Positions 31,496 to 41,053 of a stretch of 64,000 nucleotides of DNA are shown here, piece after piece. The position numbers and the translations under genes are program-made. Positions within the stretch are counted from its first letter, which is position 1, and each line of letters starts with the position of its first letter. Below the pieces are notes generated by a model that did no database searches, was not told where the DNA came from, and saw only the letters and a list, made by a program, of their open reading frames with translations. Source of the stretch: Armatimonadota bacterium (GTDB taxonomy: Bacteria; Armatimonadota; Fimbriimonadia; Fimbriimonadales; Fimbriimonadaceae); contig JBAXHT010000001.1 in assembly GCA_037138755.1 (NCBI GenBank), positions 1,707,805 through 1,771,804 of the forward strand, given 5' to 3'.

Positions 31496-33162
31496 TCAAT
31501 GCGTCACCGCACCACGGCAAGCCGGACCGACCAGCTTCACGTACTTCGCCAAAACCCCGTTCGGATACGGCTCCGGCTGTTTCCAGCCCAAGCGTCGAGT
31601 CGCCAACTGCGAATCCGAAACCGCCATCGATAAGACGCCCGCCTCGGCGTCCACCGTCACCAGATCCCCGGTCTGCACCAAGGCAATCGGCCCTCCATCA
31701 AAAGCCTCAGGACCAACGTGGCCTACCATCAGTCCCTTCGTCGCTCCGCTAAACCGCCCATCGGTCAACAAGGCAACATCGTTGCCCAGCCCCTGCCCGA
31801 CAATCGCCGCTGTTACCCCAAGCATCTCCCGCATTCCCGGCCCGCCTTTTGGTCCTTCGTAGCGAATGACCACCACATCACCCGCCAGAATCTCTCGGTT
31901 CTGAACGGCACGCATCGCCGCCTCTTCGCCATCAAACACCCGGGCTGGACCGGTGTGGACCAATTTCTTAACGCCGGTCGTCTTAATCACGGCGCCATCT
32001 GGTGCCAAGTTCCCGCGAACGATGACTAAGCCGCCCGTTGCCTCGACGGCGTGATCTTTGTCTCGAACGACCTCGCCATCAGGAAGCGCGATGCCTTCTA
32101 GGTTTTCTGCCATCGTCTTTCCATTGACGCAAAGGCAATCGCCATGCAAATGCCCCGACTCTAACAGCGCCTTCAGCACCACCGGAACCCCGCCAATCTT
32201 GTGCATATCGAGCATCACAAACCGCCCGCCTGGGCGCAGGTCTGCGAGAGTTGGAGTTGCTCGGCTGATCCGGTCGATGTCGTCCAGCGTGATCTCGATC
32301 CCTACTTCGTGGGCGATCGCGGGGATATGCAGAGCAATATTCGTCGATCCACCAGTGGCGGCTCCAACCATAATCGCGTTCTCGAACGCCTTTCGGGTAA
32401 GGATCTGTCGGGGTAGGATCCCTGCCCGCAAAGACTCCAGAACCTGCAAACCAGTCTTCTCCAAGAACTCGAGCCGCTCCGCAGACTCCGCCGGGGGCGA
32501 ACTGGAACCAAGCACGGTCATGCCGAGAGCCTCTGCGACGCAAGCCATTGTGTTCGCGGTGTATTGCCCTCCGCAGGCTCCCGCGCCCGGGCAGACCGCG
32601 CACTCGACCGAGTGCAGTTCGGCGGCATCAATCTTCCCGGCGGCAAACGATCCCGCCGCCTCGAAAGCGTCTTGGATCGTCACGTCTTTATCCCGATGCC
32701 GTCCAGGCATAATCGTTCCTCCGTAGAGAAAGACCGAAGGCACATTGAGCCGAGCCATGACCATCAGCATTCCCGGCAGGCTCTTGTCGCACCCCGCGAC
32801 GCCAACCAACGCATCGTAGCAGTGCCCGCGCATCATTGCCTCTACCGAGTCGGCGATGATTTCGCGGCTGATGAGCGACATCCGCATTCCATCGTGCCCC
32901 ATCGCGATTCCGTCGGCGACTGAGATGGTGTTGAACCGCCGCGCCGTGCCGCCGTCGGCGTTGATCGCCTCGGCAACCTTGATCCCCTGGTAGTCAAGGT
33001 TCACGTTGCAAGGCGTCGCCTCGCTCCAGACGGTCGCGACACCCACCCAAGGCTGGGCAAGCTCCTTATCCCCTAGGCCCATCGCCCGAAGCATGGCGCG
33101 GTTGGCAGTCTTGTCGCTCCCTTCGGAGATGGTTCGAGATTTGTGTTTGACGTCAAATGTGC

Positions 33163-33166
<4 letters not shown>
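31496..33166 (-). CDS. ilvD: Dihydroxy-acid dehydratase
   Basis: 556 residues, normal length. Iron-sulfur and active-site motifs are present: [47 protein letters not shown] and [15 protein letters not shown]. It dehydrates 2,3-dihydroxy-isovalerate and -methylvalerate to the 2-oxo acids in valine, leucine and isoleucine synthesis. It is the last gene of the operon ilvB-ilvN-ilvC-ilvA-ilvD and its ATG overlaps the ilvA stop by 4 bases. The operon ends in the MITE-like repeat. The second IlvD/Edd paralogue at 39161 is from a different subgroup. Confidence 0.95.
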
Positions 33167-36201
<3,035 letters not shown>

Positions 36202-36205
<4 letters not shown>

Positions 36206-37899
36206 GCGTGCACCTCTTGCTTCTTGGGGAGATCAGGGTCGCTGATCACGTCGTCGTTTGCCGCTCCGGCGGGAACCATTGGGAACACGTTTTCTTCCAT
36301 CTCAACGATGAACTCGCAGAGGACGGGCCCCTTCGCTTTTCGAGCTTGCTCGAACGTTTCAGCTAGGTCGGCTCGGGACGAACATCGGAAGAATGTCACG
36401 CCATAGGCGTCGGCAAGTTTGCCAAAGTCGGGTGAGCCCATTGCGACGTGGCTGTAGCGGTTCTCATAAAACAGCTCCTGCCACTGGCGAACCATGCCGA
36501 GGAAGCCGTTGTTGATGAGGCAAATCTTGACGTCAAGCTGATTCTCAACCGCAGTTTGCAACTCCTGCAGAGTCATCTGGAATCCACCGTCGCCGACGAC
36601 CGCCCAAACTTCTGCACCGGGGTTAGCAAATGCCGCGCCCATCGCCGCCGGAAAGCCGAAGCCCATGGTTCCGAGTCCGCCGGATGATAGCCACTGGTAG
36701 GGGCGCTTGAACAGGTACTGCTGAGCGGTCCACATCTGGTGCTGACCAACATCGGTGCTGACGAAGGCCTCACTTCCCGTTGATCGGTTCAGTTCATCCA
36801 GCACGTGGCGGGCGAGGAACTTGGGAGACTCGGGGACGACGATTGGGTTGGCGTCCTGGATCACGCGAATCTTCTTCCACCATTCGGGGTTCGTCTTTGG
36901 AGCAACAGACTTGACGAATTCGGGAAGCGACTCGGCGAGATCGCCGGGGATCACGACTTCGGTTTCTACGATCTTGGAGAACTCGGAAGTGTCAATGTCG
37001 AAATGAATGATCTTCGCGGCGGGCGCAAATCCCGCGACCTTGCCGGTGAGACGGTCATCCCATCGCATCCCAATTCCGATGACGAGGTCGGCGTCTTGGA
37101 CGGCAAGAGTTCCCGTGACTTCGCCGTGCATTCCCATCATTCCGAGCGAGCGTGGGTCTTGGCGCGGGATGTTTCCTAGCCCGAGCAGAGTCGAAATGAC
37201 AGGGAGATCACATTTTTCCACAAGCTCTTGGAGGGCGTCGCAGGTGTTTGACCAAATGACTCCCGCACCGGCGATGACGATCGGCTGCTTCGCTTCGGCG
37301 AGTAGTTTCGCCGCTCGCTCAAAGCTGGTTGGGTTGATCGGCGCCGAGGGGATGTAGCCGCGCCGTACAATGGTATCTGGGAACGGGTTCTCCGTCTTGG
37401 CGATGAACACATCTTTGGGAATGTCGACCAGAACGGGTCCCTTTCGACCTGTGTTGGCAAGGTAGAACGCCTCTTCCAGAATGTAAGGCAAATCGGCAAC
37501 ATTTTTGACTAAGTAGTTGTGCTTGGTAATCGGGATGGTGATGCCCTGGATATCGGTCTCTTGGAACGCATCGGTTCCAATCGCCCAGCTATTCACGTTA
37601 CCGGTGAGGCAGACCATTGGAATGCTGTCCATCATCGCGGTCGCGATTCCGGTGACGAGGTTGGTGGCTCCTGGCCCACTGGTGGCGAGGCAGACGCCGA
37701 CCTTGCCGGTCGCCCGGGCGTAACCATCGGCCATGTGGGCGGCGCACTGCTCGTGCCGCACCAGGATATGCCGGATCTCCGGCCAGTTCAGAATTTCGTC
37801 ATAAAGAGGTAGCACCACTCCGCCGGGGTAGCCAAAGAAGGTGCCTATCCCGTGTCGGCTCAGGGCCTCCATCACTATTTTTGCTCCAGATCGATTCAT
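36202..37899 (-). CDS. ilvB: Acetolactate synthase large (catalytic) subunit
   Basis: About 565 residues from ATG 37899 (MNRSGAKIVMEAL), which has GGGAG nine bases upstream. In-frame codons extend to 37968 but add no conserved sequence. TPP-dependent fold: FGYPGGVVLPLYDEI, catalytic Glu in VRHEQCAAHMADGYAR, and the GDGGFQMTLQEL...NNGFLGM metal/TPP motif. It condenses two pyruvates, or pyruvate and 2-oxobutanoate. It is the first structural gene, preceded by the attenuator (37988-38044) and leader peptide (38049-38159), so expression should respond to charged Leu/Ile/Val tRNA. Confidence 0.95.
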
Positions 37900-37987
37900 C
37901 TTGCATAGTCTCCCGTAGCCCATCATCGGGCTCGTTTTCGCGACAACTGCGTCACTCGACTTTGACAAGACTCATCTTCGAGATGTC

Positions 37988-38044
37988 AAAAAAAATCGGT
38001 CTTCCCGTTTGGGAAGACCGATTCGTGTTGCTGTTGGTCTTCCC
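37988..38044 (-). promoter_or_regulatory. Transcription attenuator of the ilvBNCAD operon
   Basis: On the minus strand three mutually pairing segments are seen. Segment 1 is GGGAAGACC (38044-38036), segment 2 is GGTCTTCCC (38019-38011), and segment 3 is GGGAAGACC (38006-37998). Segments 2 and 3 lie in a 13-bp stem (AATCGGTCTTCCC, AAAC loop, GGGAAGACCGATT) followed by eight T, an ideal intrinsic terminator. Segments 1 and 2 can instead pair over 9 bp as an antiterminator. The leader peptide stop codon is only 4 bases before segment 1, so a ribosome at the stop would mask segment 1 and allow termination, while one stalled on the Leu/Ile/Val codons would leave it free. Confidence 0.88.
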
Positions 38045-38048
38045 AGGT

Positions 38049-38159
38049 TTAAGGCGTAATAATAAGCCCAATAAGGAGGACGCTAAGAATCCCAAGAAGC
38101 GAAAGACCAAGCGAATTGATCGCGTTGAAAACTCCCTTCAAAGACTTGCCGTTCAGCAT
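38049..38159 (-). CDS. ilv operon leader peptide (Leu/Ile/Val-rich attenuation peptide)
   Basis: 36 codons from ATG 38159 to TAA. The first half is ordinary (MLNGKSLKGVFNAINS). The second half, LGLSLLGILSVLLIGLIITP, has seven Leu, four Ile and one Val, directly before the attenuator. This is the expected composition of a leader that senses branched-chain aminoacyl-tRNA. TATAAT lies 8 bases upstream of the ATG with no ribosome-binding site between, so the leader itself may be translated from a near-leaderless mRNA. The coding sequence is too short for most gene callers. Function is inferred from composition and position. Confidence 0.85.
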   Translation of the reverse strand: MLNGKSLKGVFNAINSLGLSLLGILSVLLIGLIITP

Positions 38160-38167
38160 TGAGGTTG

Positions 38168-38173
38168 ATTATA
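38168..38173 (-). promoter_or_regulatory. -10 element of the ilv operon
   Basis: A perfect TATAAT on the minus strand, 8 bases before the leader-peptide ATG. No good -35 is seen at 16-18 bases (best TAGCAA). Confidence 0.65.
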
Positions 38174-38233: not shown

Positions 38234-39157
38234 ATGGCGATTTCGTTTGCGCACACGGCTGAGGGAATGATTGTGAGACGCCCAGAAGGGATGTTTTTCG
38301 TTGCTGATACCGACGGTCAGCTTGCGCCCTTTGCCCGTCAGCAACTCCGGGCTGAAGAGTTCTTTGAGGTTTGTCGCTCCGCAGCCGAGCCTTTCAATTT
38401 TTCAGACGACACTTTGCTGCTTCCAAACATCTTTCCGGGGATCACACCGGTGCTCGGGGCCGGAGTTACCTTTGCCAACTCACTCAGGGAACGACGACTT
38501 GAGACACTTCGGATGGGCTCGCTTGACTCAGTTAGCGATGACGGGAGGGCTACTCCTTACGATGTTGTTTACGATACAAACAATCCACCCGAAGTATTTT
38601 TTAAAGCGACGGCTGATGGACACATCGCGCCAGACAACGAAATCTGGATCCGGCCAGACGGTGCTCCGGGCGGAGGCATGGGGTCAAGCGTTCCAGAGCC
38701 GGAGAGAGTTCTATTGATCAACCGTTACGGGGAGATAATTGCTCACACCGTGGGTTCGGATACTACCGCAAGGCAACTAGAAAGCTTGAGCCCCCTTTAC
38801 CTCCCAGCTGCCAAGACTTATCCGGGGTGCACAACCCTATGTCATTGGTTCACGATCTATGATCCTGGACTTGAAGTAAGGATTTCGATGGAAGTATTAC
38901 GGGATGGAGTGCAATTGTACTACGATGAATACTCGAGCGCCACGATGAAGCGCACGCCAGAAAGTCTCGTGCGACACGCCAGAACCCTTGCACCTAATGG
39001 CCTTGGCTACTTCCTTCAAGGCTTCGCGCTCTTCACCGGAACCGGTATCATTCCCCCCGTCGAATTCTCCCTCCAAGCCGGAGATAAAGTGATCATCGAC
39101 AGCCCACAACTCGGCCGAATCGACGCGACAACAAAAATCGTCGAGTTCAACTTCTAA
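38234..39157 (+). CDS. Fumarylacetoacetate hydrolase-family protein, probable 2-keto-3-deoxypentonate dehydratase
   Basis: 307 residues. The FAH fold's conserved stretch is present: GAGVTFANSLRERR, FFKATADGHIAPDNEIWIR, and the Glu/Asp metal ligands in PEPERVLLINRYGEIIAHTVGSDTTARQLE, then SPLYLPAAKTYPGC. Close relatives include XylX/KdaD, which dehydrates 2-keto-3-deoxy-xylonate or -arabinonate to 2-oxoglutarate semialdehyde. The next gene, 3 bases away, is a sugar-acid dehydratase, exactly the preceding step. This makes a Weimberg-type pentose route likely. An aromatic-catabolism hydrolase is the alternative. Confidence 0.72.
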   Translation: MAISFAHTAEGMIVRRPEGMFFVADTDGQLAPFARQQLRAEEFFEVCRSAAEPFNFSDDTLLLPNIFPGITPVLGAGVTFANSLRERRLETLRMGSLDSVSDDGRATPYDVVYDTNNPPEVFFKATADGHIAPDNEIWIRPDGAPGGGMGSSVPEPERVLLINRYGEIIAHTVGSDTTARQLESLSPLYLPAAKTYPGCTTLCHWFTIYDPGLEVRISMEVLRDGVQLYYDEYSSATMKRTPESLVRHARTLAPNGLGYFLQGFALFTGTGIIPPVEFSLQAGDKVIIDSPQLGRIDATTKIVEFNF

Positions 39158-39160
39158 GCC

Positions 39161-41053
39161 ATGAGTGAACACCTTTTCCGAACGTCGAACCTCGACTTCC
39201 CCCTCAAAAGCCCAGGCCCTGACGGTTCGCTCGATTACACACCGGATGATCTACTCAACCGGCCGAGTGGCGATCTTTTTGGCATCTCGCAAAACGCCGG
39301 AATGAGCGGAAAGGGTAGCGGAGCGACCGACCCAAACATGGTCATTCTGAGCACCCTTGGCGGTTGGCCGGGAGCGGCTCTGGGTGCGCATACTGGACAC
39401 AACGAACTCTACAAGCTCGTCGAAACCGCCGCTCAAGAATTCAAGAACTTGGGACAGCTCCCTTTCGCCCTTTACACCAGCGACACTTGCGACGGGCGAA
39501 CTCAAGGCACCATCTGGGCAAACATCAGCCTTGCATCACGCAATATCATCTACAAGTCGCTGGCCACTCAGTTGAGAGGAATTCCTTGTGCCGAGGGCGT
39601 ACTTGGAATCGCAACGTGCGATAAAGGACTCCCGGCGATGACGATGCTCATCGCTTCACTTCGCCAGTTTCCGGGCAACCTACCCGGCATCATCGTCCCC
39701 GGTGGAGTCACCCTTCCGCCCGAAGAAGGCGAAGATGCAGGAACCATCCAATCCCTCGGGGCCCGGTTTGCCAAAGGTCTGGTGAACCTGGACCAAGCCC
39801 AAGATCTGGGCTGCAAAGCCTGCGCGACTCCCGGCGGCGGTTGCCAATTTTTTGGAACGGCGGCGACCGCGCAGTGTGTCGCCGAGGCAATGGGACTGGC
39901 ATTGCCCCACTCCGCTCTTGCGCCAAGCGGGTTTGACATCTGGACTGACCTAGCTCGCGATTCGGCTAGTGCTATCGTCCAGCTACGTGATCGAGGGATT
40001 GGCGTGAAGGACATTCTCACCGAGGCGTCGATTCGGAACGCGATGGTGATTCACGCAGCGATGGGCGGCTCAACGAATCTGCTGCTGCACATCCCGGCAA
40101 TTGCCCACGCCGCCGGGCTGCGGCGCCCGACTCGAGAAGATTTTCTGGAGATCAACCTCAAGGCTCCGCGGATTGTGGACTGCCTCCCAACCGGGGTACA
40201 CCCCACCGTTCGAGTCTTTATGGCGGGTGGTGTCCCGGAAGTGATGCTCCATCTCGCCGAACTTGGGCTCCTCGACCTAGAGGCAAAAACAGTCACCGGC
40301 CACACACTGGGCGAGAACCTAGAGGCATGGCGCAATTCAGAGCGACGCCGGATCTTGCGCGAAAGACTTCAACAAGAAGACGGTGTGGAGCCCGACGATG
40401 TGATTCTTCCGGCTGCTAAAGCCAAACAATTGGGATTCACCTCCACGGTTGCGTATCCGACGGGAAACATCGCCCCCGAGGGCAGCGTTGTCAAGGCAAC
40501 TTCAATCCATCCCCGACTCCTCGATGTGAACGGCGTCTATCACAAGGTCGCCCCTTGCCGGACCTTCACCAATGAGGCCAGTGCGATTCAAGCCGTGAAG
40601 GACGGCACGATCCAACCTGGAGAGGTCGTCATCATCATGTGCCGAGGCCCCCTCGGCGCGGGGATGCCAGAAACCTATGAGGTCACCGCCGCTCTCAAAG
40701 GCGTCCCCGAACTCTCTGACTGCGCCCTCATCACCGATGCCCGCTTCTCCGGCGTTACGACTGGCCCATGCTTCGGCCACGTTTCTCCCGAAGCACTGGT
40801 CCCCGGATCACCGCTCGGGAAACTTCAGGACGGAGACATGATCGAAATCAAGCTCGACACAAAGACGATGATCGGCTCCATCGATGCTCTCATCGATTTA
40901 GAATCTCGCGCGACTCGGACCGACTTGGAGCGCGACCCGTATCTTCCGGACTACATCCAGCAATGGGCTCTAGTTCAACACTTTAGCGGCGGCGTTTGGG
41001 GTGGCTGCGTCGAGGATATACGGGCCCTGACTTTGCTTCTCGACAGAAGCTAG
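39161..41053 (+). CDS. IlvD/Edd-family sugar-acid dehydratase (YjhG/YagF-like, probable xylonate dehydratase)
   Basis: 630 residues, longer than IlvD (556 here) and matching the YjhG/YagF subgroup. Cluster ligands occur in TSDTCDGRTQGT, GIATCDKGLPAMTM and CKACATPGGGCQFFGTAATAQ, with [21 protein letters not shown] and CRGPLGAGMPETYE downstream. Subgroup members dehydrate D-xylonate or related aldonates to 2-keto-3-deoxy acids. It is coupled to the FAH-family gene and probably works with the GH10 and GH51 enzymes of the window. Its stop overlaps that of the convergent NTF2-like gene (CTAG). Confidence 0.85.
   Translation: MSEHLFRTSNLDFPLKSPGPDGSLDYTPDDLLNRPSGDLFGISQNAGMSGKGSGATDPNMVILSTLGGWPGAALGAHTGHNELYKLVETAAQEFKNLGQLPFALYTSDTCDGRTQGTIWANISLASRNIIYKSLATQLRGIPCAEGVLGIATCDKGLPAMTMLIASLRQFPGNLPGIIVPGGVTLPPEEGEDAGTIQSLGARFAKGLVNLDQAQDLGCKACATPGGGCQFFGTAATAQCVAEAMGLALPHSALAPSGFDIWTDLARDSASAIVQLRDRGIGVKDILTEASIRNAMVIHAAMGGSTNLLLHIPAIAHAAGLRRPTREDFLEINLKAPRIVDCLPTGVHPTVRVFMAGGVPEVMLHLAELGLLDLEAKTVTGHTLGENLEAWRNSERRRILRERLQQEDGVEPDDVILPAAKAKQLGFTSTVAYPTGNIAPEGSVVKATSIHPRLLDVNGVYHKVAPCRTFTNEASAIQAVKDGTIQPGEVVIIMCRGPLGAGMPETYEVTAALKGVPELSDCALITDARFSGVTTGPCFGHVSPEALVPGSPLGKLQDGDMIEIKLDTKTMIGSIDALIDLESRATRTDLERDPYLPDYIQQWALVQHFSGGVWGGCVEDIRALTLLLDRS

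Follow-up and report, generated by a model that had tools for sequence, protein, structure and literature searches.

The closest studied case is the ilvB1NC operon of Mycobacterium tuberculosis, in which a ribosome at the stop codon of the uORF masks the antiterminator and leads to termination, and a stall at the LVVI codons frees the antiterminator (PMC13236596). In Corynebacterium, the ilvB-II motif of ilvBNC joins a uORF for branched-chain amino acids (BCAA), conserved from start to stop, to an antiterminator and a terminator, once per genome and before ilvB (PMC10272879). Leaderless poly-cysteine uORFs of mycobacteria act as attenuators as well (Canestrari 2020, as cited in PMC9031893). 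The leader pattern alone is no proof of attenuation, since in related-looking ilvB leaders of Streptomyces changes of the regulatory codons gave no response (reported in PMC1262725).

The window, by which we mean the whole stretch of 64,000 nucleotides analysed here, carries a leader of this kind on its minus strand, upstream of an ilvBNCAD operon. We read it as a ribosome-mediated transcription attenuator of that operon, with a probability of roughly 0.88. This attenuation reading, already proposed in the initial annotation, is strongly supported by the L/I/V-rich leaders of 28 relatives and by the covariation of both alternative helices; starvation for Leu, Ile or Val codons is the probable signal. 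It is a known type of switch in a phylum for which the open-access papers searched gave no description of leader-peptide attenuation (Armatimonadetes). The locus extends this mode of control over branched-chain amino acid synthesis to the Armatimonadota, a poorly studied group. As the host is an armatimonadote, the comparison with Proteobacteria and Actinobacteria is one of analogy, not of kinship.

With M. tuberculosis ilvB1NC, the locus shares a BCAA-rich uORF, a predicted masking of the antiterminator at the stop codon and a position before ilvB, ilvN and ilvC; there, the leader measures 166 nt and senses through LVVI, whereas the L/I/V run is much longer here, with 13 of the last 20 codons (PMC13236596). 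It also differs in that the ORF starts 8 nt past the -10 element, ilvA and ilvD belong to the operon, and the leader continues behind the terminator with a dual hairpin. The Corynebacterium ilvB-II uORF is usually 15-17 aa long, against 31-47 aa here, and sequence and lineage differ (PMC10272879). The mycobacterial poly-cysteine uORF (cited in PMC9031893) is likewise a short ORF, lying at the very 5' end of its RNA, whose run of cognate codons senses an amino acid; that amino acid is cysteine, in place of Leu, Ile and Val, and here the leaderless status is judged from promoter spacing only. Mycobacterial cys operons have no obvious terminators upstream (PMC1262725), in contrast to the intrinsic terminator found here.

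The order of the operon, identified with NCBIfam, bears out the gene names given at the outset; all five genes lie on the minus strand. They are ilvB (acetolactate synthase large subunit, 37899-36202, TIGR00118, 716 bits), ilvN (acetolactate synthase small subunit, 35720-36205, TIGR00119), ilvC (ketol-acid reductoisomerase, TIGR00465; mechanical ORF 34674-35870, domain from about residue 65), ilvA (threonine ammonia-lyase, TIGR01124; mechanical ORF 33163-34911, domain from about residue 86) and ilvD (dihydroxy-acid dehydratase, 31496-33166, TIGR00110). Conservation across relatives places the ilvB start at the ATG at 37899, while the mechanical ORF begins at a TTG at 37968. This start is preceded by a Shine-Dalgarno (SD) sequence GGGAG at 37914-37910 (minus strand), and 25 of the 28 relatives have an SD-like site before ilvB. 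Outside our genome set, the closest named relative of IlvB belongs to an uncultured Armatimonadetes bacterium (69% identity). The gene upstream is divergent, starting at 38234 on the plus strand, so that a terminator on the minus strand can act on the ilv transcript alone. The divergent neighbours (38234-41053, plus strand) are a 307-aa protein without an NCBIfam family and a dehydratase of the YjhG/YagF type (D-xylonate), a relative of IlvD lying beside the ilv operon.

Direct reading of the minus strand reproduces every coordinate first given for the -10 element, the leader ORF, its stop codon, the following segment and the terminator. The -10 element TATAAT (38173-38168) is preceded by a weak -35, CTAGCA, and is separated by 8 nt from the leader ATG at 38159. 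The leader ORF (38159-38049, minus strand), of 36 codons plus a TAA stop at 38051-38049, encodes MLNGKSLKGVFNAINSLGLSLLGILSVLLIGLIITP and is supported by conservation in 28 relatives; it is not preceded by a Shine-Dalgarno sequence. Leu, Ile and Val make up 13 of its final 20 codons. No small ORF of 28-50 aa among 3577 from 400 kb of the same genome (a sample of stretches, C1:1-400000) reaches at least 13, the mean being 3.8, and 42 of the 3577 reach at least 9. A mechanical scan of 464 kb for a -10 element followed by a small ORF and a terminator gave 17 candidates, with regulatory codons in the ilv leader only.

From the promoter spacing, the leader transcript would begin at or near the start codon of the ORF. 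The initial annotation had called this arrangement unusual; in this genome it is common. For 169 genes with an upstream gap of at least 60 nt in the 400-kb sample, TANNNT lies at a spacing of 6-10 from the start in 50 cases, against about 12 expected from its density at 20-49 nt; spacing 6 alone accounts for 19 of the 50, a sharp peak. In the same genome, a -10-like box is found 10 nt before the leuA start and 12 nt before the trpE start. Together with the excess of 50 over about 12, these two genes indicate that a near-leaderless start is ordinary in this genome. Near-leaderless or leaderless genes appear common in the sample as a whole. The upstream regions of leuA and trpE contain no attenuator that we could find.

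By the initial annotation, a lack of conservation of the leader codons in relatives would have spoken against the proposal; the L/I/V-rich leader ORF is kept in 28 of 28. Relatives were located through the IlvB protein, because a search at the DNA level matched the nearest genome only. An ilvB gene was found in 30 of 85 genomes of the family, and the 28 readable leaders come from distinct genomes, that of the window included; L034 duplicates one genome under its public name, and two other leaders are cut short or were not recognised by the motif. At 1e-200, no ilvB match fell outside the family among 113 genomes of the order. Only 29 of the 113 have such a match, and all of them are members of this family; auxotrophy or a more distant enzyme may account for the rest.

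All 28 leaders follow the same plan: a -10-like hexamer, an L/I/V-rich ORF, a stop codon, segment 1 and a terminator hairpin. The hexamer lies 3-13 nt before an ATG or GTG leader start in each of them, and in 27 the best match carries A2 and T6; a good -35 at 17-18 bp, for example TTGGCA or TTGTCA, is present in several relatives as well. Leader starts in relatives were assigned manually, with the reading frame and the position of the -10 box as guides. The ORFs span 31-47 codons, are L/I/V-rich in their second half and have 9-14 L/I/V among the last 20 codons; an SD-like site is absent before 25 of the 28. The kept reading frame and L/I/V content agree with the leader being a coding sequence, as far as comparison of sequences can tell. 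The locus is a natural setting in which to ask if attenuation can be driven by a sensor peptide whose translation starts in the absence of a Shine-Dalgarno sequence.

Past the stop codon, the RNA contains three segments that form two mutually exclusive helices, segment 2 being common to both. The 5' arm of the antiterminator, segment 1 (TGGGAAGACC, 38045-38036), pairs with 38019-38010: GGGAAGACC at 38044-38036, 4 nt past the stop, faces GGTCTTCCC at 38019-38011, and 38045 with 38010 is a possible tenth pair. Segment 2 (38023-38010) supplies both the 3' arm of the antiterminator (38019-38010) and the 5' arm of the terminator (38023-38011). The intrinsic terminator is completed by segment 3 (38006-37994) and the T-run (37995-37988), in the span 38006-37988; its stem pairs 38023-38011 with 38006-37994 in 13 bp around a 4-nt loop, with eight T ending at 37988. 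All three segments are on the minus strand. Both conformations were folded, at -14.4 kcal/mol for the antiterminator and -23.7 kcal/mol for the terminator, in agreement with the alternatives first described, an antiterminator or a 13-bp terminator with eight T. The RNA from the stop codon to the T-run folds at -26.7 kcal/mol (z = -5.7).

The alignment of related ilvB upstream regions that had been suggested was carried out, and both alternative helices covary. As the whole-leader MAFFT alignment put segment 1 in a wrong place, we registered an 8-bp core by hand in 18 distinct leaders. Helix 1:2 is paired at 88%, and 7 of its 8 pairs have changed on both sides; for helix 2:3 the figures are 95% and 6 of 8. 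The percentages lean toward structure, since a hand-picked register favours pairing. The covariation score of either helix was matched by none of 500 shuffles, and a shifted register abolishes both. Individual leaders are weaker: the 1:2 pairing is poor in L032 and, in L012, not clearly better than that of shuffled sequence, a few other leaders are marginal, and T-runs are weak in several relatives. Swapping segments between leaders discriminates little, since CCGGGAAG is common to most relatives; the cognate 1:2 duplex came out ahead in only 6 of 28. The 28 leaders and their two covarying helices form a comparative data set good enough to test.

In the mechanism that we propose, transcription would start just past TATAAT, placing the ORF at or a few nucleotides from the 5' end of the RNA, and translation would probably begin by leaderless initiation. 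With ample charged Leu-, Ile- and Val-tRNA, the ribosome would reach the stop at 38051-38049 and cover segment 1; from the geometry, segment 2 would then pair with segment 3 and RNA polymerase would terminate at the T-run. With any of the three tRNAs uncharged, the ribosome would stall in the L/I/V codons and leave segment 1 free, so that the 1:2 antiterminator would form first and the operon would be transcribed. The same short segment would thus carry both states. Taking the 26-nt ribosome footprint applied to ilvB1 in M. tuberculosis (PMC13236596), we calculate that a ribosome halted on the stop codon would span about 38063-38037 and so hide nearly all of segment 1; one whose A site holds the last Ile codon would span about 38072-38046, segment 1 being just freed. 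The leader lacks a dedicated pause or protector hairpin, so that it is expected to read through when untranslated.

The anatomy described in the initial annotation holds for the attenuator; it missed a further conserved RNA element, which lies past the terminator and before ilvB, a dual hairpin that constitutes a new lead. In the window, its first hairpin H1 (GTGAC-GCAGTT-GTCGC, 37955-37940) and second hairpin H2 (AGCCC-GATGAT-GGGCT, 37932-37917), both on the minus strand, each have a 5-bp stem and a hexaloop with G1 and G4, and are joined by a linker of 7 nt. They were recognised by alignment, covariation and a covariance model. H2 ends 2 nt before the ilvB Shine-Dalgarno sequence GGGAG, a position that suggests an effect on ilvB translation. 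Over 19 aligned loci, loop position 4 is G in all H1 and in 18 H2, position 1 is a purine in both hairpins, and the stems covary, with 24 cells changed on both sides, a level that none of 500 shuffles reach.

The covariance model scores high at ilvB only, once per genome. The full element is missing from about a third of the ilvB loci: L009, L010, L014, L031 and L032 are without the dual hairpin, and in L013, L015, L019 and L025 the first hairpin is present with the second altered or missing. Matches outside ilvB are weak; in the genome of the window, one of the top two falls within an ORF and the other is a lone hairpin ahead of a glpX-like gene. Two matches came from a pattern search in which H1 by itself had to precede an SD. 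The single hairpin CCGAC-AAAGCT-GTCGG, which resembles H1, lies at C1:93984-94040 (L132:1501-1557), just before AGGAG; the glpX-like gene that follows is, by eye, a putative fructose-1,6-bisphosphatase class II.

Tandem hairpins of this layout are known from the RNA targets of ANTAR proteins. In the eut targets of Enterococcus, dual stem-loops carry hexaloops with A1 and G4 and are separated by a linker of 5-12 nt (PMC3369931). In actinobacterial targets the linker measures 2-25 nt and the loops are less strict, A1 and G4 being retained in just over 50%; these targets often lie at the ribosome-binding site (PMC8164766). The window element resembles eutP of Enterococcus in its tandem hexaloop hairpins with G4 in both loops, its linker being 7 nt (PMC3369931), and actinobacterial targets in its closeness to a ribosome-binding site (PMC8164766). 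It differs from ANTAR targets in having a purine for A at position 1 (G in the window) and in lying downstream of the terminator without overlapping it, and stands as a candidate known from sequence. Two stem-loops of at least 3 bp, hexaloops, a short linker, G4 in both loops and an ANTAR protein in the genome are all present; since A1 is replaced by G in both window loops, the element was not filed as an ANTAR target. By sequence it looks like one and may work like one.

Exactly one ANTAR protein occurs in each family genome searched (23 of 23), and the dual hairpin is a concrete candidate RNA target for it; as the protein is also present in family genomes without a full ilvB match, the co-occurrence proves nothing. 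In the genome of the window, the sole ANTAR protein is a REC-ANTAR response regulator of 211 aa (C1 about 1406417-1407052, L126:6418-7053, minus strand), with 72 bits to PF03861 and with Rv1626 and EutV as its closest solved structures. Aligned to EutV, it keeps R142, K143, K149, E160, Y164, M172, N173 and R175; K147 is changed to R, and R168 and R177 are replaced. In the EutV-RNA structure, G4 is stacked on Y164 and held by R142, K149 and E160, and A1 makes no specific contact (PMC8934654).

As an addition to the attenuator, the dual hairpin could be bound by the REC-ANTAR protein; such binding would mask or open the ilvB ribosome-binding site and let a second signal set translation. We hold this second layer of control as a hypothesis whose chances fall a little short of even. 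The tandem hexaloops with purine-1 and a near-invariant G4, their spacing in the window, the stem covariation, the single occurrence per genome before ilvB, the presence of one ANTAR protein throughout the genomes searched, its retained G4-contact residues (R142, K149, E160 and Y164) and the precedent of actinobacterial targets near ribosome-binding sites (PMC8164766) point toward it. The G at position 1 of both window loops, the third or so of ilvB loci without the full element, the replacement of EutV R168 and R177 and a fold energy near chance for the dual hairpin alone (z = -0.9) weigh against it. The composite picture, in which one leader stacks a near-leaderless Leu/Ile/Val attenuator and a dual hairpin read by the sole ANTAR regulator, with a two-component signal gating ilvB translation, is tentative and somewhat under even odds. 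No relevant report of ANTAR together with an ilvB leader peptide was found among the open-access papers searched.

Among explanations that would displace the attenuator, the one that survives best takes the leader for an arrest peptide, whose nascent chain stalls the ribosome on a metabolite, as in TnaC, and not by codon hunger. Geometry speaks for it to the extent that the choice between the helices would turn on a ribosome at the stop codon. Specific residues are usually conserved in arrest peptides, however, and here they are not: the peptide sequence drifts among relatives, only its L/I/V content is retained, and L, I and V interchange among close relatives. Compared with the nearest relative, the window shows 12 changes in the 111 nt of the leader and 3 in the following 161 nt. 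Six of the seven changed leader codons are replacements, and every one of the six involves L, I or V (among them I to L, L to I, S to I and I to G), and the count in the last 20 codons is 13 in both; this comparison also speaks for the attenuator. We consider an arrest peptide very improbable.

Slightly less probable again is that the ORF encodes a real small hydrophobic protein, membrane-like in character, and that the terminator is a constitutive part of the 5' UTR without any switch. The peptide is hydrophobic enough for a membrane segment, but such a protein gives no reason for segments 1 and 2 to covary, nor for the stop codon to keep its short distance to segment 1, which lies a few nucleotides past the leader stop in all 28. 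T-boxes control ilv genes elsewhere. Control by a riboswitch, a T-box or another known RNA family is nearly negligible in probability: ppGpp riboswitches do control ilvB in some bacteria (PMC10272879), but Rfam searches gave nothing relevant, Rfam 15 at gathering thresholds finding no family in the window except a tRNA, and a permissive search of eight ilvB loci only sub-threshold matches to unrelated families.

For the attenuator, codon choice in the leaders is a further observation. The Ile codon ATT is used at 79% in leaders and 29% in the genes of the window, and the Leu codon CTT at 48% and 18%, respectively. If the usual G34 tRNAs are present, both codons would be read by wobble, which could heighten the sensitivity of the sensor.
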